Positions 8,806 through 30,867 of a stretch of DNA of 35,818 nucleotides are shown one piece after another. This DNA comes from a virus. How positions within the stretch are numbered: the first letter of the stretch is position 1; each line of letters begins with the position of its first letter. Made by a program: the position numbers and the translations under genes. The stretch covers positions 1 through 35,818 of the IMG/VR virus record IMGVR_UViG_3300023184_000310. One strand, written 5' to 3'. Below the pieces are notes generated by a model. That model was not told the origin of the DNA and did no database searches. It saw nothing but the letters and a program-made list of their open reading frames with translations.

Positions 8806-9246
8806 CTATTCCTTCAGAAGCTCAGATTTCGTAATGGAGATCTTACGAGGTTTCTTAGCCTCAGGAAGTTCCCTTTTCAGATGAATCGAGAGAATGCCAT
8901 CTTCCAGCGTAGAGCCGGTGACGACTACGTAATCGGCGAGCGTGAACGTCTTAAAGAAGTTCCGTGAGGAAATTCCTTTATGAGCATATTCGCGTTCGTC
9001 GTTCTTACCACCAGTGATGTTAAGCACTGACTCTCGTACCTCGATATCAATGTCTTCCGGTTTGAAACCGGCGACGGCGAATTCGATGGTGTAGTTATCA
9101 TCGTCAATCTTGATGACGTTATGGGGTGGATACGTACCGAATGAATTTGCTTCAGCTTTCCAGGGTTGGGATTCCAGGAGGTTGAAGAGGTTATCAAAGC
9201 CAATGAAGAATTGGCGAGGGACGTAACTGTAGTGACCGAGTTGCAT
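8806..9246 (-). CDS. Small heat-shock protein, Hsp20/alpha-crystallin family, 146 aa
   Basis: An alpha-crystallin domain spans about residues 35-130: YPPHNVIKIDDDNYTIEFAV, AGFKPEDIDIEVRES, LNITGGK, YAHKGISSRNFFKTFTLADYV and GILSIHLKRELPE. The tail KKPRKISI holds the I-x-I motif used in oligomer assembly. Such proteins hold unfolding proteins in the cytoplasm. ATG 9246 is preferred: AAGGA sits eight bases upstream, whereas an extended frame begins with TTG upstream of that site. A TATAAATA late promoter lies at 9347-9354, so it is probably made late. Phage hsp20 genes are common in cyanophages. Confidence 0.93.
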   Translation of the reverse strand: MQLGHYSYVPRQFFIGFDNLFNLLESQPWKAEANSFGTYPPHNVIKIDDDNYTIEFAVAGFKPEDIDIEVRESVLNITGGKNDEREYAHKGISSRNFFKTFTLADYVVVTGSTLEDGILSIHLKRELPEAKKPRKISITKSELLKE

Positions 9247-9346
9247 TTGTTTCCTTTCCCCCAATTAAGCGGGGAGTTTGTTTGTGTTGTAATCCACCAA
9301 GCCCCGAAGGCACTCGATGGTTCGAACTCGACAGTGAGTTCAAATT

Positions 9347-9354
9347 TATTTATA
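9347..9354 (-). promoter_or_regulatory. T4-type late promoter (TATAAATA) for hsp20
   Basis: Exact TATAAATA, about 100 bases before ATG 9246. The predicted start, five to six bases downstream, coincides with the first base of a hairpin GAACTC-ACTGTC-GAGTTC, so the message would begin with a 5' stem-loop. Confidence 0.75.
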
Positions 9355-9370
9355 TGACCGGCGCTTATGC

Positions 9371-11962
9371 CTACTTCTCTTTGGCATATTGCGCAAATGC
9401 ATCTGCATTATCCTGCATGCGCTTTTTGACACCGGCAAATCCGGACTTAAAGTCGTGGTGATTCAGGTACTGCACGGCCGCATTGGCCCAGTCTCCGGCC
9501 TTCATGAGAGCCATTGTCTTGGGAGTAGCCTTGGGACCTAGGTCTCCACGATACCATGCGGAAACTATGGCGTTCTTGACGTACTGAGGCAGAGTATGAT
9601 ATGATGGCAATGCTTGCTGAATAGCAGCTTCACGCTTGGCAATATCTTTTTTGAGAAGCGCAACGGCCTCGCTATCAGTCAATCCCTTGGAAAAGTTTTC
9701 ACCGGGCTGAAGTTTGTGCCCATAGGCAATCGTATCAGAACCACCTTCCAGACTCTTGTGCGGATACCAGCGGCCGCTCGCCTTATCGTATCCGCCAGCA
9801 GGATTGCTTTTACTATTTTCGTATGACATCAATACCTGTTCCGGAGAAGTTGCATTCATAGGTTTCACGGCATGCGTGATAGCTGGAGCGTAAGCAGCCG
9901 GTTTATGTGCAGCCATTCCAGTAACTGTAGAGAGACCGAGTAGACCGGCTGCGGCCAGAGATCTCCAATCTTCCTGTACGATTTCGCCAGATTCATTCAT
10001 ACCTAGTTTAATGAGTTTGGTGCCACCATGATCATCAACTAAGTACGGTTCAAACGTGACATCGGGGTATTCTTTTTTGAGGCCAGCAAATGCCTTCAAA
10101 TTAGCCATGGAGTCATCGTACTCGCGGACCAGATCATATTTGCCCGTGGCAAGATATTGACGTACGATTACATTCTTTCTCTGAGGAGGTAACACGCCAG
10201 GACCAGGAAGATTGCCTGCGCGATGTACGTGCACCTTGGACATATCCACACCATAGTCCTTGAATGTCTGCAGGAATACGTGCTTGTCGTCAAAGTCCGC
10301 ACGAGCCGTCAGCATGATGACCGTGGAGTCACCGGAGTTCTTCAGGATCGCCTTGAGTTTGGCAAGCATCGGACGGATCGGCTCAGATTCTTTTCTAAAC
10401 TTCTCAGCATTCTTAAATTCACCAAAGTCAAATGATTCTTCGGGTTTGAGCGTGTAGTGATTAAACTCAGATGATGTGAGAGTGTGTACAACCACAGGTC
10501 CACGCATCACGCGCACCTTGGCAGTCGTATGAAATAGTGTGTCATCAATATCAAAGATCGTGAGGCTTCGGCCTGACGGACCTTCATAGATCGTATTGCT
10601 TTCTTTGACGACGACCTTGGCCAATGGGCGATCGGCTTGACCATCCGCAAGCCAGTTCTTGAAGTCCGTTATGGAAAGAGGAGTGATGGCGCCTAGGCGA
10701 TGATGCGCAAGATCATCAGAGAATCCATTCAGATACGTCTCACGAGCAGACTGTAGATCACCAAAGGCAATCATGATCTTGTGCTCGTCAAATTCTCCGG
10801 TATCTACATTGAGCTGATCGACCACGTACACATTGGCCGCATCATCGCTATCTCCGACGTAGCAGTCCAGATCGTCACCATCGACGCCAGGAATACGCTT
10901 CAAGAATCCATAGTCAGCAGGCATCGGCACCGACCACTCGTCTCCATTTGAATTAGTTCCGCTACGAAGTGATCCTTTGGGATTCTCAATGGTAATATTA
11001 AATCCAGCAACATCGCGCGATGCAATATTAGGATTTGAAGTATCTTCTTTGACGCCAGTCCATTCACGGAATTGAAGGAGCTTACGAGAAGAGATGATCT
11101 CAAAGAAAGTCTTGGCTTCAGGATGATTAACTTTGTGATAGCTAAACTCGATCGAAGAATAGATCGGGCGATAATGCAGAGTGCGATCGTGCGAGGTCAG
11201 CAGCAATTGACCGGTGGTGACCATGTCGCCTTCAGCCGGATCGCCCTTGCGAATCGGATTCATGAATTGATCCTCTTCGTTCGGTGTAATGGCCAGGCAG
11301 TCAATCAGATCTTTAGGATTTTTGGCATCAGGCACACAAGCGATTACGTACATTAAACGGTGCTCGGTGCTTGCGCGGGCGCGCTTAAAAATAGGATCAA
11401 TTGCATTTTTAGAATAACCAAGCTGAGGAAGAATGATGCCGTGATTTGTACGAACAGACCAGCCAACTTCCTTGGTGATCTCTACGATTTCTGAAATAAA
11501 TTCACGGGGATTATCTTCATTGGCATGCTTTTTCTTAACAGTAAATCCGCCTTCTAAAAGATAGCATTCATCTTTATTGAATACATACGTTGCTCCGCAT
11601 AACTCCTGCTCTTGCAGGTATTTGATGGCCTCGAGCGGAGTTTTAAGATATAGCGCATCGCGAATAGTTTTACCATCTGGAGAATAATAATCAGTCTGGT
11701 TGTATTTCTTCTTACCGCCTTTGGGCACAACTTTGTCCCCTTCTTTTTCATCAGACTTTACAGAGAATGAAGCCGAAAGAATACAAACGCCAAACTCATT
11801 CAGACCTTCCGTCCAACGGCTAACCGTATCATCGATGTATAGGCGCTGCACGTCATTACGATCAGACTGAATGATCTTGATAGTTGTCTCATAGTTGCGG
11901 TCACGATTTTTCGCACCACACCAACCGAATTTTTCAAACCATTTAACGGCAACGACGCACAT
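9371..11962 (-). CDS. 863-aa multidomain protein: Ntn-hydrolase-like, InPase-like, HAD-like and lysozyme-like domains
   Basis: Four domains are visible. (1) About 1-305: MC at the start (Cys2 as possible N-terminal nucleophile), KNRDRNY, GLNEFGVCILSAS and VRTNHG, the pattern of cysteine Ntn-hydrolases such as the NRDE and bile-acid-hydrolase relatives. (2) About 315-440: GDEWSVPMPADYGFLKRI, GVDGDDLDCYVGD and HKIMIAF, resembling the inorganic-pyrophosphatase-like domain of phage polyvalent proteins. (3) About 466-655: IFDIDDTLFHTT, MLTARADFDD and REYDDS, a HAD phosphohydrolase. (4) About 705-863: SYENSK, HKSLEGGSDTIAYGHKL and GLTDSEAVALLKKDI, a lysozyme-like muramidase domain. An Ala/Gly-rich stretch (668-690) joins domains 3 and 4. 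A late promoter ends seven bases before the ATG and the product is large, so a virion or injected protein is likely but unproven. The frame is open throughout, with no sign of a frameshift. Confidence 0.8.
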   Translation of the reverse strand: MCVVAVKWFEKFGWCGAKNRDRNYETTIKIIQSDRNDVQRLYIDDTVSRWTEGLNEFGVCILSASFSVKSDEKEGDKVVPKGGKKKYNQTDYYSPDGKTIRDALYLKTPLEAIKYLQEQELCGATYVFNKDECYLLEGGFTVKKKHANEDNPREFISEIVEITKEVGWSVRTNHGIILPQLGYSKNAIDPIFKRARASTEHRLMYVIACVPDAKNPKDLIDCLAITPNEEDQFMNPIRKGDPAEGDMVTTGQLLLTSHDRTLHYRPIYSSIEFSYHKVNHPEAKTFFEIISSRKLLQFREWTGVKEDTSNPNIASRDVAGFNITIENPKGSLRSGTNSNGDEWSVPMPADYGFLKRIPGVDGDDLDCYVGDSDDAANVYVVDQLNVDTGEFDEHKIMIAFGDLQSARETYLNGFSDDLAHHRLGAITPLSITDFKNWLADGQADRPLAKVVVKESNTIYEGPSGRSLTIFDIDDTLFHTTAKVRVMRGPVVVHTLTSSEFNHYTLKPEESFDFGEFKNAEKFRKESEPIRPMLAKLKAILKNSGDSTVIMLTARADFDDKHVFLQTFKDYGVDMSKVHVHRAGNLPGPGVLPPQRKNVIVRQYLATGKYDLVREYDDSMANLKAFAGLKKEYPDVTFEPYLVDDHGGTKLIKLGMNESGEIVQEDWRSLAAAGLLGLSTVTGMAAHKPAAYAPAITHAVKPMNATSPEQVLMSYENSKSNPAGGYDKASGRWYPHKSLEGGSDTIAYGHKLQPGENFSKGLTDSEAVALLKKDIAKREAAIQQALPSYHTLPQYVKNAIVSAWYRGDLGPKATPKTMALMKAGDWANAAVQYLNHHDFKSGFAGVKKRMQDNADAFAQYAKEK

Positions 11963-11969
11963 ATAACCT

Positions 11970-11977
11970 TATTTATA
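11970..11977 (-). promoter_or_regulatory. T4-type late promoter (TATAAATA) for the four-domain protein
   Basis: Exact TATAAATA, with ATG 11962 only seven bases downstream (AGGTTAT between). The message would start within about one or two bases of the start codon, so it is effectively leaderless unless longer read-through transcripts exist. Confidence 0.7.
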
Positions 11978-12334: not shown

Positions 12335-12781
12335 TTATTTAGGCTTCTTCACGTTACCGATCGAGTACTTAGTCTCGAGGTTCCATGAGCCTTTCTCCTT
12401 GTGGGAGATGATCTTAATCTGGCGTAACGATGCACGCTCAGTGATCGAAGAGGGATTCACAATGGTCAACAATCCCCAGTCTGATAATAGAATGGCAATC
12501 GTATTGCGTCGTCCCAAATCGTCCTTGCTAAAGTTAGCCGTCTTGCCGTCCAACATGAAAAGTTCTTTGAAATGCACAATGAAATAACGTCCTTGCTTGT
12601 GCAAAATGTGGCACGACTGAAAGAGTGTATTGACTTCTTTCTTGGATGCTACACCGATACGTGAGAGCGTCTCTCTGACTTTTAGAAAGTCATCTGGCTC
12701 ATTGAGCGAGATCTCCAGCATTGTCGATGGAGACCATTCGACCGGTTCAGAGTCGATGGAAGGATTGGGTGTTGAATCCAT
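12335..12781 (-). CDS. regA: RegA translational repressor, 148 aa
   Basis: RegA binds the start regions of early phage mRNAs and blocks translation. The match to T4 RegA is clear: MLEISLNEPDDFLKVRETLS, LFQSCHILHKQGRYFIVHFK, MLDGKTANFSKDDLGRRNTI and LLSDWGLLTIV, then WNLETKYSIGN near the C-terminus. T4 RegA begins at the equivalent of residue 21 here, so the first 20 residues (MDSTPNPSIDSEPVEWSPST) are either an extension or untranslated, with true start ATG 12721. Neither ATG has a ribosome site. It follows gp62 as in T4 (44-62-regA). Confidence 0.93.
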   Translation of the reverse strand: MDSTPNPSIDSEPVEWSPSTMLEISLNEPDDFLKVRETLSRIGVASKKEVNTLFQSCHILHKQGRYFIVHFKELFMLDGKTANFSKDDLGRRNTIAILLSDWGLLTIVNPSSITERASLRQIKIISHKEKGSWNLETKYSIGNVKKPK

Positions 12782-16660: not shown

Positions 16661-17860
16661 TTAGAACGGAGATTCGGTCGTTGTCGGAGCCGGAGTCGCT
16701 TCAGCGGCCGGAGCCGGAGGAGTGATCGAGGCATCGATCTTTGAGTAGAGATCCAGGAATGCGTTACGCGTGTCGGTATCAAAGCGCGCAATGCACAGTT
16801 GGATGGACCGGGCACGATCCCCGAAGATCGCAAATGTCTGAGCAATGTGACAGAGACGGCGAGTCGACACGACTTCCTCAATGGCCTCAGACTCAAAAGT
16901 CTTACGGATCACCGTGGACCACGCCACAAGCTTGTCTGCAAAGTCCTCGTCGAGCTTGCCGAATTTCTCCATGTGCTTCACGACGATCTTGCGTTCCACT
17001 GCCTGAGCCGCATAGGGCTGTTCAATGGTGGCCACGAACCGTTCGAGGAATGCCTCGTCGATAATGGTGGCAGCCGCAAAGCGACCGTCGTCAGATCCAC
17101 GGCCTTTGGTATTGGCGGTGGCGATAATGTTGAAGCCGGGTGCGGGATGCACGACTTGACCGGTTTTCTTGACAAGTACCGGCTTGCCTTCCAAGATCCC
17201 CTGCATACACATGATCTTGTTGGAGCCACGATCGATCTCGTCGATCAGGAGGATGCAACCACGTTCCATAGCCTTGAGGACGGGTCCCTTGCAGAACACG
17301 GTCTCGCCACCGAGGAGGCGGAAGCCACCGATCAGGTCGTCCTCGTCGGTCTCGGGAGAGATCTGGACGCGGATGTATTCACGCTTGAGTTTGGCACACG
17401 CCTGCTCGACCATGGTCGTCTTGCCGTTACCGGAGAGACCGGAGATATAGATCGGATAAAAGAGCTGCGACTGGATCGCCTTGAGGACGGTGTCGTATTC
17501 GCCCCAGCGGACAAAGGTCGGATCGACCTCGGGCACGTATGCGTCGTCATTCATGGTCGAGGTGACGGACTGAGCGAGCTTGAAGACTGCAGACGGAGCC
17601 TGGACCGGTGTCGGCTCAGAGGGAGCCGGCTGGGCAGCCGCGGCATTGATCCGACCGCCGATGGTGACGGTGCCGACCTTGGAGATGTCGTACGCGCCAC
17701 GGCCGGATCGAGTCCGACTCGTCAGCAGATTCTCATTGATCTCCTGCCACGTGGCACCGAGATCACGGGCGGTGGTGGAGATGATGTCACGATGCCAGAC
17801 ATTTTGGCCCGGACTCCGTTCGCGGAGTTTTTGGATGGTTTGTTCAATCACGTATTTCAT
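16661..17860 (-). CDS. CobS/MoxR-like AAA+ ATPase, 399 aa
   Basis: The AAA+ core begins near residue 110. Walker A is GLSGNGKTT (141-149), Walker B GCILLIDEID (201-210), sensor 1 NIIATAN (244-250), and IIDEAFLERF gives the arginine-finger region. The GRGSDDGRFAAAT loop is typical of CobS- and MoxR-type proteins. Bacterial CobS works with CobT in cobaltochelatase; phage versions are often called cobS but have not, to my knowledge, been shown to insert cobalt. The N-terminal 68 residues (RERSPGQNVWHRDIISTTAR) form a separate helical domain, and a Pro/Ala linker follows. The C-terminal tail is Pro/Ala/Thr-rich. It is read just downstream of the CobT-like gene, as expected for a partner pair. G+C is high here (35 of 60 in one line). 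Confidence 0.88.
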   Translation of the reverse strand: MKYVIEQTIQKLRERSPGQNVWHRDIISTTARDLGATWQEINENLLTSRTRSGRGAYDISKVGTVTIGGRINAAAAQPAPSEPTPVQAPSAVFKLAQSVTSTMNDDAYVPEVDPTFVRWGEYDTVLKAIQSQLFYPIYISGLSGNGKTTMVEQACAKLKREYIRVQISPETDEDDLIGGFRLLGGETVFCKGPVLKAMERGCILLIDEIDRGSNKIMCMQGILEGKPVLVKKTGQVVHPAPGFNIIATANTKGRGSDDGRFAAATIIDEAFLERFVATIEQPYAAQAVERKIVVKHMEKFGKLDEDFADKLVAWSTVIRKTFESEAIEEVVSTRRLCHIAQTFAIFGDRARSIQLCIARFDTDTRNAFLDLYSKIDASITPPAPAAEATPAPTTTESPF

Positions 17861-17882
17861 AATGTATTCTAACTATGCTAAT

Positions 17883-17911
17883 ATTGTACCAAGATCTGAG
17901 TAAATGTACAC
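17883..17911 (-). promoter_or_regulatory. Early-type promoter P7 (GTGTAC-17-TACAAT)
   Basis: GTGTAC (17911-17906), 17 bases, TACAAT (17888-17883), 23 bases before the CobS-like ATG 17860. It is part of repeat cassette R2. Confidence 0.7.
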
Positions 17912-17963
17912 AAAAAAGTGCAACTATTTTCGTGTTGATTATCAACAACTTATACGCGTTTCA
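17883..17963 (-). repeat. Promoter-bearing intergenic repeat R2
   Basis: From the CobT-like stop codon to the -10 of P7, near-identical to R1 and R3. It contains the 13-base palindrome GTTGAT-A-ATCAAC (17934-17946), followed by GAAAATAGTTGCACTTTTTT and GTGTACATTT. Confidence 0.92.
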
Positions 17964-20195
17964 GGCGATCACCTGGCTGAATTTGGAGAGCACCACGCGC
18001 TGCGTGCGCTTTGAGTTGTTGAATTCGGTGAAGGCGCGGGCCAGTTTGCCCTGAGATTTTCTTACATCCACAACCTCAAAGTCGGTATCGAACTCGTCGT
18101 CCGTGTCGATGTTGAGATCCTTACCGGCGGCCAGCACGTAATACTCGTCGAAGCCGTAGCCGCCCTTGATGATCAGACAGTTGTCCTTGCGATAGGTCGC
18201 GCGGACATCTTTCGAAGTCGATATGCTCGGGAATGATTTGCGTGTGTAATCCATGGCGCGTCCCGCATATGCAATCGCTTGATTCTGAGAATTCGGAATG
18301 AAGAATCCAACGACCGTCGATCCGGTCGCTTTGCGAAGGTTCTGAATCAGTTTCTCATAGGAAAATGCATCGCCGTTCAGAGTGACTTCGGAGCCGCCGA
18401 GATTGCCCTTCATCTTCGAGGTCCGGTTGCCGCCCGCCGCCTTCATTCCAGCCTCGGTCTGATGGCGACCGAGCCCTGATCCGTCGCCGTCCGTGAGGAA
18501 CACGACGTTCATCTTCTGGACCGGATTCGCCTTGCGAAACTCGCTGACCAAGCCGTGGGCAGCCACGACACATTCCTGAAGCGGCGTGCCGGACAGACCC
18601 TCGAAGGCCGACGTCACTTGGCAATAACCGCCACCGCCGAGCTCGTGGCCGATCGCGCGACCAGGACCTTTGTAAAAGAAAGCCTGAGCGAGCGTTTGCT
18701 CGATGGCCAGATCAAATTCTGCCTTGCTCATCTTGCTCGAGAATGTCTGGATCAGTGACAGATAAGAAAGACTGATCTCATCGTGGGCCACGTTGTCGTG
18801 CAGCTTGTTGGCGATAGACGGATTCGTGAAGCCGTAGACCTCAAACGGGATGTTGAGGCTGCGGCAGAACATAACCAGGTTGACCGTGTGCTCCAGGACA
18901 TAGCCAAGCGAGTGACACATCGAGCTCGAGTAGTCGACGAACATCATCATGCCGTGATCCTTGGCATTGGCCAACTTGGTGATCGACTTGAAGATGTCCT
19001 CCGAGTAACGATATGAATGGAGCTTGGACATGTTGAGCGTGCCAGTCTTGGCGACGGACGCTCGAGAATACTGATGAGCCGCCTTGCGCATTTCGAACTC
19101 GCGAGCCAGACTGGCCACGTACTTCTTCGCAGACGCTTTGGTTTCCGTGTAGTGGGCCTTGGTCGCCGCATGATTCATGTATGCCGCATACCGCGGTTTG
19201 GTCTGGCGCGCCGCAAGCAGCTTTGCATACGGAGTGATGCAGTTATTGACGATCTCTTTGCGAGGGGCAATGAAGTGCGCGCACTCGTCCGTCTGCTGAA
19301 TTGACTTGACGGCTTGATTAAATGCTGCGGCGGTCTCCGAGGTGAGTTCCTCCTTGACAGTCGTATTACCGGCTTGGGATCCAACCGCAGGGGATTCTTG
19401 ATCTTCGGATTCGGTCGGCTGTTTGCCAGTCTCGGTGGACGGCTGATTGCCGGTAGATTCAGATTCGTCGGCCGCGTCGTCAGATTCACCCTTGGAGTCT
19501 GCCTCATCGGTCTGCTCGCCTTCGTCATCCGTATCCTGCCCGACATTGTTATTGCCAGGCTGCTGCTCGTCGCCCTGATCGGGCTCAGAAGATTTGCCGG
19601 GCTGAGTGTCGGATCCAGCCTCGTCTTGCTTGCGCTTGCCAACCATGTGCGCGATGTCCTTACAGATCTGGATCACTTCGTCGAAGTCGGCGGCTTTGAT
19701 GCAGCGATCGTAAATCGCCTGCTCGTCGGCCGTCAACTTGACGTCGATGACTTTGCCAGCCTTGGCATGAAGATTCAGGCGATCCGCAAAGCCCATCTTA
19801 GCGATGTCTTTGCCTTTGATGCCGAAGAAATTATCTGCGACCAACGTTTCGTATGCTTGACGGAACGTGGTCGCGAGGCCCGGGTACGTGTCTTGGATCA
19901 TGCGCTCAATGCGAATGTCCTCGACTATGTTGCAGATGTCGAACGGCACCTCGGGGAGTTCCTGACGGAACTTTTCTATGCCGGACGTCGGGGTGAAGAG
20001 GGCATGGCCCACCTCATGTCCGACGAGCAAGTCATAAACATTCTTGCCTGACGTCTTCCACATTGGAAGGCCAAGGACACGCGACTTGGTGTCGAAGAAT
20101 GCCGTGGCATAATTGCCGTGTTGGATCCGGAGATTTTCCTTGGCCAGAAGTTTGGCCAGCATCCCCTGCTGATTCATATTGACTTGCTCGATCAT
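17961..20195 (-). CDS. CobT-like protein with HExxH peptidase-like and VWA domains, 744 aa
   Basis: Three parts are visible. Residues 1-180 include LPMWKTSGKNVYDLLVGHEV, with HEVGHALF (60-67), a zinc-peptidase HExxH motif, and NIVEDIRIERM downstream, where the third ligand could lie. About 185-285 is a very acidic Ser/Asp/Glu/Gln-rich linker like that of CobT. The rest is a von Willebrand A domain with a MIDAS motif VDYSSSMCHS and FLTDGDGSG. Start set at ATG 20195 (MIEQVNMNQQG), seven bases past the -10 of P8, so the mRNA is probably leaderless. Bacterial CobT is a cobaltochelatase subunit, and MoxR/VWA pairs remodel protein targets. Which applies here is unknown. The gene is flanked by repeats R2 and R3. 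Confidence 0.85.
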   Translation of the reverse strand: MIEQVNMNQQGMLAKLLAKENLRIQHGNYATAFFDTKSRVLGLPMWKTSGKNVYDLLVGHEVGHALFTPTSGIEKFRQELPEVPFDICNIVEDIRIERMIQDTYPGLATTFRQAYETLVADNFFGIKGKDIAKMGFADRLNLHAKAGKVIDVKLTADEQAIYDRCIKAADFDEVIQICKDIAHMVGKRKQDEAGSDTQPGKSSEPDQGDEQQPGNNNVGQDTDDEGEQTDEADSKGESDDAADESESTGNQPSTETGKQPTESEDQESPAVGSQAGNTTVKEELTSETAAAFNQAVKSIQQTDECAHFIAPRKEIVNNCITPYAKLLAARQTKPRYAAYMNHAATKAHYTETKASAKKYVASLAREFEMRKAAHQYSRASVAKTGTLNMSKLHSYRYSEDIFKSITKLANAKDHGMMMFVDYSSSMCHSLGYVLEHTVNLVMFCRSLNIPFEVYGFTNPSIANKLHDNVAHDEISLSYLSLIQTFSSKMSKAEFDLAIEQTLAQAFFYKGPGRAIGHELGGGGYCQVTSAFEGLSGTPLQECVVAAHGLVSEFRKANPVQKMNVVFLTDGDGSGLGRHQTEAGMKAAGGNRTSKMKGNLGGSEVTLNGDAFSYEKLIQNLRKATGSTVVGFFIPNSQNQAIAYAGRAMDYTRKSFPSISTSKDVRATYRKDNCLIIKGGYGFDEYYVLAAGKDLNIDTDDEFDTDFEVVDVRKSQGKLARAFTEFNNSKRTQRVVLSKFSQVIA

Positions 20196-20201
20196 GGTAA
20201 T

Positions 20202-20230
20202 ATAATAACAAGTCTGGGCCAAATGTACAC
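20202..20230 (-). promoter_or_regulatory. Early-type promoter P8 (GTGTAC-17-TATTAT)
   Basis: GTGTAC (20230-20225), 17 bases, TATTAT (20207-20202). Six bases separate it from ATG 20195, so the first transcribed base is expected at or next to the A of the start codon. It is part of repeat cassette R3. Confidence 0.7.
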
Positions 20231-26310: not shown

Positions 26311-26318
26311 TATTTATC
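26311..26318 (-). promoter_or_regulatory. Late-like promoter GATAAATA before uvsY
   Basis: GATAAATA on the minus strand, 10 bases before ATG 26300, overlapping the stop codon of the tube-fold gene. It differs from the late consensus at the first base only. Confidence 0.4.
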
Positions 26319-26787
26319 ATCTGATAAAGTCGAAGTGATTATACCGAAATGAAACCTCGGCACTTACATATTCAATATCTGAAGCCTGAGCACTGAATTC
26401 GAATCCAGATAATGTTGTAGGAAACGCATCTTTAAATCTAATTTGCTTGTTTAGATTATTTTTGGATGACATGATTGACAATATTAGATCGTGTCGCTGT
26501 GGCGATCCGGCGGAATTTGCATTTGCTGCAATCCAATTTGCAATCTCTTGATAGTTTGACATATTCTCATCCACCATGAATCGCACACTGAACGGTTCGT
26601 AGGTAATATGGTCGCCTGGAGTAAAACCCTGTTGATTGCGAAAATTGGTAGTAACTTCCGTTATGCTGACCGATGGCAATGTTACTGATGCAGAAAAATA
26701 TGCAATATTTGCATACTTCTGATTATCGATTGTCAGTTTCCACGACGTTGGTGAAAGGAAATTTAAGTTTGTCGTCAATGTGCTCAT
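26317..26787 (-). CDS. Tail-tube-fold structural protein (gp19-like or gp3 position), 156 aa
   Basis: The chain NFLSPTSWKLTIDNQKYANI, YFSASVTLPSVSITE, GFTPGDHITYEPFSVRFMVD, ENMSNYQEIANWIAAN and PTTLSGFEFSAQASDIEYVS follows the beta-sandwich order of phage tail-tube proteins. In aquatic T4-like phages the gene between gp23 and uvsY is, as I recall, often named gp3 (tail completion). I see the tube fold but not a clear T4 gp3 match. It has its own CATAAATA late-type promoter directly after the capsid terminator, so it is expressed with virion genes. Confidence 0.7.
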   Translation of the reverse strand: MSTLTTNLNFLSPTSWKLTIDNQKYANIAYFSASVTLPSVSITEVTTNFRNQQGFTPGDHITYEPFSVRFMVDENMSNYQEIANWIAANANSAGSPQRHDLILSIMSSKNNLNKQIRFKDAFPTTLSGFEFSAQASDIEYVSAEVSFRYNHFDFIR

Positions 26788-26880: not shown

Positions 26881-28449
26881 TTACAGTCCCGAGATAACGT
26901 TCGAGGACGCAGACCACAGGGCCTGCTGGACGATCGTTGTACCCTTGAGGCTGAGGCTCTTCACACCGAACGAACGGTAGTAGAAGTTCTGGCCAGCGGC
27001 ACCCGCCTGGGTCGCATTGCTCGTTGTCTGCTGCACGAAGGGGTTCGCAACCAGACCATAACGGGTCTTGAAGGCGATCTTCGGCTGGAACGTCGCGGGA
27101 TCCACGGCACGCACCATCGTGAGGGGCACGTAAGGAGCGTAGAAGATACCAGCGTCGTAGGGGTTCGTACCACGGTAACCCACCGTGATGTAGTCGGTCA
27201 AGGCATACGGATCAACGTACACTTTGATACGACCATTCAGCACACCAGCAAAGGTGTTGCCAGTGTCGTCAACTTCGAGGGTCGTGCTCAGCGCAGGAGC
27301 GTAATCCAACACACCAGCCGCCGACAGCGTGGAAGCCACGTTGCTCGAGCAGACGATGAAGTTGCCTTTACCACGGCGCGTATCCTTGGCGATCTGGTTC
27401 GCTTCGAGTTCGATAGCGACCAGCAAGCTCTTATAACGCTCCACAGCCCAACGGCCGTCAGCGTCCAGAGCCACGTCAAACGTACCAGAGTTCGTGTAAC
27501 CGAACTGAGCACCAACAACGGCGACGTTGTTGATGGTATTGATGACTTCACGGTTGATTTCGAACAGGATCTCGGAGGAGAGGATGTTCGCCAGTTCGGA
27601 TTCAGCATCCAAACCATGAACAGCCTTGAGGTCCTGCGCCAATTCCATCGTGTAGTCAGCTTTCAGCGCGCGGGTATTAGCCGTCACGGTGGATTTCTCA
27701 ATCGAGAAGCCCATGTTCTTGAAGCCATAATCAGCCGAGCTAGCAACGTAGTCGCCCGAAAGCGCTTCGCCGTTAGCCGTCGAGTAGGTCTGCGACGAGG
27801 TCGACGTGTCACCCGAGAACGCGGAGTTCACAGGAGCGTTACCATTGATGACGAAGTTACCTGTGCCAGTAGCAAGACCCGAAGCAACCGTCAGGGTCAA
27901 GGGATCGCCATTAGCAGAGTACGAAGCAATCGCCGAGATCGCTTTCTGCGTACCAGCGGAGTCAGTGACGATCGCGCCGATCACGATGTCCTTGAGCGCA
28001 CCGCCAGAAGCCGCCACGCCGGTCAGAGTGAGCGTCGTGGACGACACCGTACCGGTCACGCGAGCAATAACTTTGCCGCCGTAGAGCGCATCGTTACCAT
28101 TGATGATTTTCTGTGTTGAGGCAACGGCCGACTGATACTTCGGCTTGAGGGCGAAGATCAAACCGGTCGGAGCAGACATCGGCTGCACACCAGCGATATC
28201 ATACGCAATCAGGTTCGGCATGGCGCGGCGCACCAGGCTGATCAGGATCGGATCGAAGTTCTGGATACCACCGGTCGTGGTCGACTCATTCAGGAAGCTC
28301 GACTGTGCGCGCTCTTCCTTCATGGCTTTTTCTTGGTTTTCAAGGAGAACGGCCGTAACCGCTTTGCGGTACGAATCCTTGATTTTGGGAGCGTCAGCGT
28401 GCTCGAGCACGGGGGCCCACTTCTTCAGGGCATTATCGGAATTAAACAT
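26881..28449 (-). CDS. 23: Major capsid protein, gp23-like, 522 aa
   Basis: The N-terminus (LKKWAPVLEHADAPKI), LVRRAMPNLIAYDIAGVQPM, SAPTGLIFALKPKY, a central KADYTMELAQDLKAVHGLDA, EINREVINTINNVAVVG, KGNFIVCSSNVASTL and GYRGTNPYDAGIFYAPYVPL are classic T4 gp23. A prohead-protease site L-N-E falls at residues 53-55 (after FLNE), so the delta piece is 55 residues (T4: 65). About 100 residues (roughly 125-225) form a Ser/Thr/Gly/Ala-rich beta-type insertion (VTGTVSSTTLTLTGVAASGG and onwards), in the region where T4 gp23 has its insertion domain. The start has an A-rich leader and no ribosome site. Confidence 0.97.
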   Translation of the reverse strand: MFNSDNALKKWAPVLEHADAPKIKDSYRKAVTAVLLENQEKAMKEERAQSSFLNESTTTGGIQNFDPILISLVRRAMPNLIAYDIAGVQPMSAPTGLIFALKPKYQSAVASTQKIINGNDALYGGKVIARVTGTVSSTTLTLTGVAASGGALKDIVIGAIVTDSAGTQKAISAIASYSANGDPLTLTVASGLATGTGNFVINGNAPVNSAFSGDTSTSSQTYSTANGEALSGDYVASSADYGFKNMGFSIEKSTVTANTRALKADYTMELAQDLKAVHGLDAESELANILSSEILFEINREVINTINNVAVVGAQFGYTNSGTFDVALDADGRWAVERYKSLLVAIELEANQIAKDTRRGKGNFIVCSSNVASTLSAAGVLDYAPALSTTLEVDDTGNTFAGVLNGRIKVYVDPYALTDYITVGYRGTNPYDAGIFYAPYVPLTMVRAVDPATFQPKIAFKTRYGLVANPFVQQTTSNATQAGAAGQNFYYRSFGVKSLSLKGTTIVQQALWSASSNVISGL

Positions 28450-30023: not shown

Positions 30024-30683
30024 TTATTTACCCGAAGCGACTTCATTCAAGAAGCGCGAGAGCATGCGGGCTTGTGCTTCCGCAATCTGCTGTTTCGGCG
30101 TTGCACGAATCTCTTTACGAATCGCATCAACCTTACGGGCAACATACTCATTGCCCTCTTTAAAAAATTCCACACCCTCCATGATCCCCTCGACGAACGC
30201 CGAAGGAGCAGAAGGATCTTGCACAATGTCCACGGTGGCCAACATGAAGTCGTCCTTCACGTAGGTCGTATTACCACGCTGCTCAACGGTACCCATACCG
30301 CGTGAGGAAACACCAAGCTTAACTCCACCCTCAACCAGACCCTTGACGATCTGGCCCATCGGCGTATTCAGAATCAGCGCCTTGCCAATCACGTCATCAC
30401 CGTTCCATCTGAGTTCCGTGATACGATGAGAAACTTTATCCAGATTGATCGTAGGACCATCAGGATGATTCAATTCACCAACTGCGCGACCCGTGGAGAC
30501 TTGCTCCTTGACGTACTTATTCACGGCTTCTTGCAGAATCGCACGCGGATACACACGCTTGTTACGATTCTCTTTTTCAGCTTGCATGAACACACCTTCA
30601 ATAAACACCTTGCGTTCGCCATTAGCGGCGGCTTCGGTGATGTATTGAATATTCGAGTCTTTGAATTCGCAGATCAGTTTCAT
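30024..30683 (-). CDS. 21: Prohead core protease, gp21-like, 219 aa
   Basis: Serine protease of the herpes-type fold that cleaves prohead proteins after L/I-x-E. The catalytic-region motifs are GELNHPDGPTIN (His) and LGVSSRGMG (Ser), with FMLATVDIVQDPSAP following. The start is placed at ATG 30683 (MKLICEFKDSNI), four bases after the gp67-like stop. A longer frame would overlap that gene. Size is close to T4 gp21 (212). Confidence 0.95.
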   Translation of the reverse strand: MKLICEFKDSNIQYITEAAANGERKVFIEGVFMQAEKENRNKRVYPRAILQEAVNKYVKEQVSTGRAVGELNHPDGPTINLDKVSHRITELRWNGDDVIGKALILNTPMGQIVKGLVEGGVKLGVSSRGMGTVEQRGNTTYVKDDFMLATVDIVQDPSAPSAFVEGIMEGVEFFKEGNEYVARKVDAIRKEIRATPKQQIAEAQARMLSRFLNEVASGK

Positions 30684-30687
30684 TTGA

Positions 30688-30867
30688 TTACTTAGCCGCG
30701 GAAGCTTGCTTAGAAGCATTGTTGTTATAGATGTCAGCCGTCAGCGCAACGCGAGCGACATTAAGTGCCGCTTCGACCTTGGCGCCCATGGCCTGATGAA
30801 ATGCTGCCTGCGCTTGTTCTTTAGTACCATGCAGCATAGTATCAACAAATTGCTCAGTAGGATTCAT
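30688..30867 (-). CDS. 67: Prohead core protein, gp67-like, 59 aa
   Basis: An open frame of 59 codons fills the gap between the portal and protease genes, the T4 position of gp67/gp68. The product MNPTEQFVDTMLHGTKEQAQ then AFHQAMGAKVEAALNVARVA is one helical segment. The KVEAALN-x-ARVAL-x-ADIY core is like the small core proteins of other T4-like phages; T4 gp67 is 80 residues. An exact TATAAATA lies eight bases before the ATG, strong support that it is real. It is Ala-rich with no acidic tail. Confidence 0.78.
   Translation of the reverse strand: MNPTEQFVDTMLHGTKEQAQAAFHQAMGAKVEAALNVARVALTADIYNNNASKQASAAK

Follow-up and report, generated by a model that had tools for sequence, protein, structure and literature searches.

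A late four-domain protein at a module-swapping locus of an uncultured T4-like phage, a candidate cargo of the phage head

Results

An intact four-domain frame inside the replication cluster

The window analysed here is the whole of a linear 35.8-kb IMG/VR fragment from an uncultured T4-like phage. It carries T4-type genes for gp17-23, gp46, gp47, gp55, uvsW, gp45, gp44, gp62, regA, hsp20 and gp43, which were named from our own reading of the translations and from synteny, with gp21 checked by Pfam. Within the replication cluster, in the order regA, gene, hsp20-gp43, lies a minus-strand ORF for an 863-aa protein that starts with ATG and runs in one frame with zero internal stops, and the plus-strand reading of 9371-11962 has stops throughout (Table 1). 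The initial annotation had described its product as a single late-made protein joining a cysteine Ntn-hydrolase, an InPase domain of the polyvalent type, a HAD phosphatase and a terminal lysozyme, and this description held in all its parts. Every quoted motif is present (Cys2, NRDRNY at 19-24, GLNE at 53-56, RTNHG at 171-175, DLDCYVGD at 364-371, DIDDTLF from 471, MLTARAD at 550-556 and SLEGGSDTIAYGHKL at 737-751), and the domain matches given below go beyond chance. GC and GC3 along the ORF are fairly even and similar to those of the neighbouring genes, and a comparable multi-part fusion of 834 aa occurs at the matching locus in L030 (three identical contigs); a sequencing frameshift or a chimera behind the frame is unlikely for these two reasons.

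Table 1. Features of the 863-aa gene and of its surroundings in the window
Feature	Position	Strand	Basis or remark
ORF for the late multidomain protein of 863 aa	9371..11962	minus	exact span of the initial annotation
Cysteine Ntn-hydrolase domain, residues 1-300, nucleophile Cys2	11063..11962	minus	AlphaFold and structural matches
InPase domain, residues 316-438	10649..11017	minus	PF18823, E 5e-41
HAD phosphatase domain, residues 466-655	9998..10567	minus	motifs, model, PHROG 415
GH24 (T4-type) lysozyme domain, residues 705-863	9374..9850	minus	PF00959 and fold match
IYE, residues 458-460 (L/I-x-E)	10583..10591	minus	aligned with the prohead-type site of stand-alone HADs
VQE, residues 662-664	9971..9979	minus	aligned with LEE/LNE ahead of DW in relatives; V makes a relaxed motif
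DWRSLAAAGLLGLSTVTGMAAHKPA, hydrophobic segment before the lysozyme	9896..9970	minus	conserved; signal-peptide- or membrane-like
TATAAATA, T4-type late promoter	11970..11977	minus	7 nt ahead of the ATG of the 863-aa gene
hsp20, downstream border of the slot	8806..9264	minus	own TATAAATA promoter
regA, upstream border of the slot	12335..12781	minus	synteny in relatives
Prohead protease (gp21 type) of this phage	30024..30719	minus	PF03420 Peptidase_S77, E 1.2e-42
gp23-type major capsid protein	26881..28449	minus	FLNE↓STT near the N-terminus (sequence)

The sequence TATAAATA, well established as the T4 late promoter, occurs 6 times in the window (0.47 expected from shuffling), always intergenic and on the minus (coding) strand, with four copies among the head and tail genes gp17-gp21, one ahead of hsp20 and one ahead of the 863-aa gene. 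Among relatives, NATAAATA is found within 80 nt upstream of the Ntn gene in 39 of 49 distinct cases, as against 1.5% of background bins. A late promoter kept both at this gene and in its relatives bears out late expression. The hsp20 gene, which adjoins the DNA polymerase gene, has a T4-type late promoter of its own at 9347-9354.

FLNE↓STT in the gp23-type capsid protein is a putative prohead-protease site (the arrow follows the motif here and below). Directly downstream of gp23 lies a second gp19-like (tail tube) paralogue (26317-26787) with CATAAATA ahead of it, and positions 16661-20222 in the replication cluster encode an ATPase of the AAA class (MoxR/CobS-like) together with a partner of 753 aa (PHROG 459, 'peptidase'), both kept in relatives.

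The N-terminal domain has a cysteine Ntn-hydrolase fold

AlphaFold modelling of residues 1-310, with 33 family members aligned, gave a pTM of 0.80 and a mean pLDDT of 73.7. Foldseek placed isopenicillin N acyltransferase, bile salt hydrolase (BSH) and penicillin V acylase at the top of the matches, and a second structural aligner returned CV2077 at Z 18.8 (218 residues aligned at the most similar match) and NAAA, acid ceramidase, C69 dipeptidase and TANGO2 at Z 14-18, with many Ntn families among the top rows of the match list. Residue 2 of the model superposes on the mature nucleophile position of the matched structures, and M1-C2 together with R20, D21, N55 and N173 are invariant in the 33-sequence family alignment. 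The model and these matches, with Cys2 on the nucleophile, uphold the Ntn assignment.

The fold, the N-terminal Cys and the N-R-D and TNH-like motifs are common to the PF03417-type Ntn-hydrolases (isopenicillin N acyltransferase, NAAA, choloylglycine hydrolase, TANGO2), from which the phage Ntn differs as a separate family whose tested members pass no Pfam or PHROG cut-off. The Pfam scan gave no PF03417 match to the 863-aa protein at E<=1, the relative in the cultured Chryseobacterium phages MA9V scored 22.0 bits, just below the 23.2-bit cut-off, and a PHROG scan of one stand-alone relative (L051) gave no match. The domain is classed from the model by fold and catalytic residues, outside PF03417 membership. 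An alignment with L030 and MA9V as query collected 162 relatives, of which 80 were kept; the MA9V Ntn query added no further Ntn relatives, none were found in genome_contigs (cellular genomes), and the Ntn segment alone found no match in viral_contigs because that search used exact peptides. Among 50,697 phage records the domain was found only in MA9V, and no paper on Ntn-hydrolases in phage virions was found in the literature; within the papers and libraries searched, this phage family looks undescribed.

The C-terminal tail of the Ntn domain is nearly invariant (FFEIISSxxLLxFKE) and modelled at low confidence, and the top CTS-like 7-mers lie within it in most stand-alone members. A role of this tail as a displaced targeting peptide gained no support in the window protein, whose own tail does not score.

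InPase, HAD and lysozyme domains

The PF18823 match of the InPase domain reaches 140 bits against a cut-off of 26.8, which supports its assignment to the polyvalent type, and the acidic DGDxxD motif reads DGDDLD at 361-366. The domain aligns with the C-terminal InPase of a Pseudomonas phage portal (9b41) at E 1.6e-24; this Pbunavirus gp19 portal has the domain type in common with the window protein but bears it at the C-terminus, whereas here it stands between Ntn and HAD. No InPase relatives were found in T4-like phages, and an alignment that took in InPase fragments was set aside as misaligned.

The HAD assignment draws on three things that together sustain it: the motifs, the PHROG 415 match and the model. 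The DxDxT nucleophile motif, the Thr of TAR, the Lys and the DD pair are kept in all relatives, with domain residues D16, D18, T97, K141, D161 and D162 invariant in 10 HAD sequences, and identity to stand-alone phage HADs is 46-66%. For PHROG 415 (polynucleotide kinase) the segment gives E 4e-4, and the model matches the HAD of Lem4, AphA and the phosphatase of T4 Pnkp at modest E-values; a HAD profile run against the sequences of solved structures gave nothing meaningful. HAD motifs and fold are common to T4 polynucleotide kinase/phosphatase and the class B acid phosphatases, from which the window HAD differs by its low sequence similarity and by being without a kinase domain. In relatives, a 5'(3')-deoxyribonucleotidase-type HAD occupies the place of the HAD.

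At the C-terminus, Phage_lysozyme (PF00959) matches residues 740-848 over the Pfam cut-off (E 2e-7), and the model superposes on T4 lysozyme with Z 14.1 over 137 residues (rmsd 2.5). Glu715 falls at the position of T4 Glu11 and Thr744 at that of T4 Thr26, so the predicted terminal lysozyme is confirmed by family, fold and the catalytic Glu and Thr. E739 (in LEGG) stands five residues ahead of Thr744 and does not vary in the close alignment, and D726 is Asn in L036; E739 would be the likely stand-in for T4 Asp20. Fold (Z 14) and the Glu and Thr positions are common to T4 lysozyme and R21 endolysin (GH24), from which the window domain differs by a longer loop between catalytic Glu and Thr and by its place inside a fusion with a signal-like segment ahead.

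Modelling of residues 440-863 gave two domains with a low-confidence linker at 664-696 between them, and the segment at 9896..9970 is probably a flexible linker because of this low confidence. DWRSLAAAGLLGLSTVTGMAA, which follows VQE662-664, includes the most hydrophobic stretch of the whole protein, and the pattern of a site followed by a hydrophobic segment recurs ahead of many related lysozymes (LEE↓GWKDWVAAGAIGLGTLAGSPALA, ITE↓DWKKTLATTALAAATAFGG). The segment resembles a signal peptide or a membrane segment, and on this hypothesis cleavage at the site would leave it at the new N-terminus. Four of the 10 [LIV]xE sites fall in linkers, whose share of the protein is about 10%; this enrichment (p about 0.015) is post hoc and weak.

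Modules are exchanged between regA and hsp20/gp43

The contents of the slot between regA and hsp20/gp43 differ among related contigs, and its genes are late. Ntn alone (about 300 aa) occupies it in part of L051-L127 and HAD alone (about 200 aa) in L003-L019, in some of which it comes after hsp20; a 5'(3')-deoxyribonucleotidase-type HAD joined to lysozyme is found in L027, L028 and L033. The L030 slot holds Ntn, an unassigned segment, nucleotidase and lysozyme, and because its Ntn domain is 62-64% identical to that of the window while its middle differs, modules are exchanged. The best reading of the locus is a cargo slot whose modules are swapped among related phages. In part of L063-L124 the Ntn gene is distant from regA, elsewhere in other T4-like genomes.

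Other arrangements were seen beside these. In L029 (6330-8540), tandem duplicate nucleotidase-type HAD domains with a truncated junction inside precede the lysozyme, a snapshot of module shuffling. In L008, L013 and L019 the slot is taken by a plain T4-type lysozyme, late and about 150 aa long, next to a HAD with a targeting peptide and hsp20. Between regA and the Ntn gene, L075, L078-L083 and part of L088-L111 have one more gene, whose product of about 228 aa starts like a targeting peptide (MKSFVEYNACSIQE↓EHDYYEALSLLETA).

Stand-alone relatives carry packaging marks

T4 gp21 cleaves after L/I-x-E, and a 10-residue N-terminal targeting peptide suffices for cargo entry into the T4 head (PMC9026906). 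All nine non-redundant stand-alone HADs have a targeting-like N-terminus (11/559 among other ORFs), of the form M..FKxFLEE↓A, for example MVKFKTFLEE↓A, or MKTFWEIRE↓S. Of the stand-alone lysozymes, 28 of 39 have L/I-x-E followed by A, G, D, S or V within residues 5-28, with starts such as MIRLKSLLTE↓G and MSIIKLKDLLHEQKLIE↓A. Other ORFs show the pattern in 43 of 305 cases, and internal positions of the lysozymes in 0-4 of 39; both the HAD and the lysozyme counts include related sequences, which overstates their significance. A large lysozyme family in viral_contigs (L172, L174, L140, L166, L191, L196) likewise has prohead-type N-terminal sites; some of its members contain LysM, and in some a signal-like segment immediately follows the site.

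In the cultured MA9V phages, the catalytic Cys of the Ntn domain comes directly after FINE↓ (MA9V-2, L129:37782-38606) or FLNE↓ (MA9V-1, L231:465-1289). Both genes are annotated as hypothetical protein, and an in-frame upstream ATG yields a start (MLKTFTNM...) that resembles a T4 targeting peptide. MA9V-2 has a gp21-type protease, and the motif found in its Ntn recurs at the N-terminus of the major capsid protein (EFINE↓A) and at that of the core protein (YFINE↓A). Several propeptide positions are changed between MA9V-1 and MA9V-2, and the change from I to L still keeps the motif. Cleavage at these sites would free the Ntn nucleophile. Judged by such marks, the stand-alone HAD and lysozyme relatives and the MA9V Ntn look like prohead cargo. 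The 863-aa protein itself begins with MCVVAVKWFEKFG and has no capsid-targeting peptide ending in L/I-x-E; the nucleotidase-lysozyme relatives have no N-terminal targeting peptide either.

Discussion

InPase and lysozyme are among the phage-type polyvalent domains predicted to be packaged and injected, and InPase fused to portals has been predicted to be virion-borne (Iyer et al. 2017, PMC5512222). From this prediction, together with the InPase in the portal chain of a solved virion structure (9b41), injected head cargo is the favoured reading: we consider it fairly probable that this T4-like phage makes the 863-aa polyvalent protein late, packages it in the head and injects it with the DNA. 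Support for the virion protein proposed in the initial annotation is indirect, coming from the head-packaging marks on relatives of each module. The four domains, the late promoter, the swaps in the slot, the targeting peptides of relatives, the portal-fused InPase and the protease in the window support this reading, and against it stand the missing N-terminal targeting peptide of this protein and of the nucleotidase-lysozyme relatives, and the strict L/I-x-E in one linker only (IYE458-460), the other sites having V. The protein would be co-assembled into the prohead and remain beside the DNA once the head is mature; the gp21-type protease encoded in the window may cut it at the L/I/V-x-E linker sites, and it would enter the host at injection. 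Removal of Met would expose Cys2 as the nucleophile of an amidase acting on some amide or small peptide. Nucleotides, nucleic-acid ends or PPi may be the substrates from which the HAD and InPase domains strip phosphate or pyrophosphate, and the lysozyme, preceded by its hydrophobic export-like segment, would act on the wall. A breach of the wall by the lysozyme part is possible, and this part could equally serve lysis.

That last option leads to the alternative that the protein is the endolysin of the phage, namely a late cytoplasmic protein whose lysozyme is exported at lysis by a segment of the signal-arrest or signal-peptide type, with late metabolic enzymes or accessories as its other domains. 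We regard this main rival as unlikely, although the late promoter and the GH24 fold with a signal-like segment suit it, the nearest large contigs (L028 and L030, both fragments) showed no other GH24, M15 or Amidase_2 lysin in family searches and with a lysozyme profile, and the plain late lysozyme in the slot of L008, L013 and L019 is in its favour. An endolysin has no need for the extra enzymes, however, and the capsid-targeting-like N-termini of lysozyme relatives argue for another role, as do the Ntn and HAD relatives that bear packaging marks with zero lysozyme and the two contigs in which a targeting-type lysozyme is accompanied by Amidase_2.

A late cytoplasmic multi-enzyme protein, made for neither virion nor lysis and acting on nucleotides and amides in DNA packaging or against rival phages, would have little evident use for a lysozyme that follows a hydrophobic stretch of export-like type, and the packaging marks of the stand-alone HADs and lysozymes and of the MA9V Ntn speak against it. 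This explanation is quite improbable in our estimate; the 863-aa protein itself being without a targeting peptide agrees with it, three of the four domains would act on small molecules, and InPase has been proposed to clear PPi and nucleotides (PMC5512222). Finally, the fusion might not exist, being an assembly chimera or mis-joined frames. The protein is known from one metagenomic contig and no close InPase relative was found in T4-like phages, but the frame is intact, the composition is fairly even and L030 has an independent multi-part fusion at the matching locus, making an artefact of this kind very improbable.

Returning to the head-cargo reading, capsid maturation might also switch on the injected enzyme set. 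In MA9V the prohead protease would free the amidase nucleophile, and in the window the poly-enzyme would be divided at its linkers, releasing among others a lysozyme with a signal-like N-terminus. We put this forward as a tentative possibility.

With at least two distinct enzymatic domains in one chain encoded by a mobile element, the window protein is of the polyvalent kind, and like the phage polyvalent proteins of PMC5512222 it has several enzymatic domains per chain, InPase and lysozyme among them. It differs from them in that its gene lies in a T4-like replication cluster, it carries a Pnkp-like HAD and no metallopeptidase processing domain was found in it; the abbreviation NTN is absent from the main text of that paper. 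With the T4 internal head proteins (IPI-III, Alt) it has in common the late promoter and L/I-x-E motifs, and a T4-type prohead protease encoded in the genome; targeting-peptide-like N-termini are found on its stand-alone HAD and lysozyme relatives. By contrast with IPI-III and Alt, the 863-aa protein is larger, multi-enzymatic and without an N-terminal targeting peptide. The likening to T4 gp5 in the initial annotation is not apt, since the gene lies between regA and hsp20/gp43 and not in the baseplate cluster; the OB-fold N-domain and beta-helix C-domain of gp5 are absent from the Pfam scan and the two models. Its further claim that no such set of domains had been described stands in the collections searched, no place in the 50,697 phage records covering 80% of the protein. 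The four-domain combination thus looks new in what was searched, within a kind, polyvalent or internal head protein, that is already known.

Taken together, these findings point to a cargo slot amid the replication genes of uncultured T4-like phages, in which late enzymes are swapped and fused. If these proteins are injected, the deliveries made by T4-like heads would widen beyond Alt and the IPs and would come to include an amidase family that the searched papers and libraries do not describe for phages.
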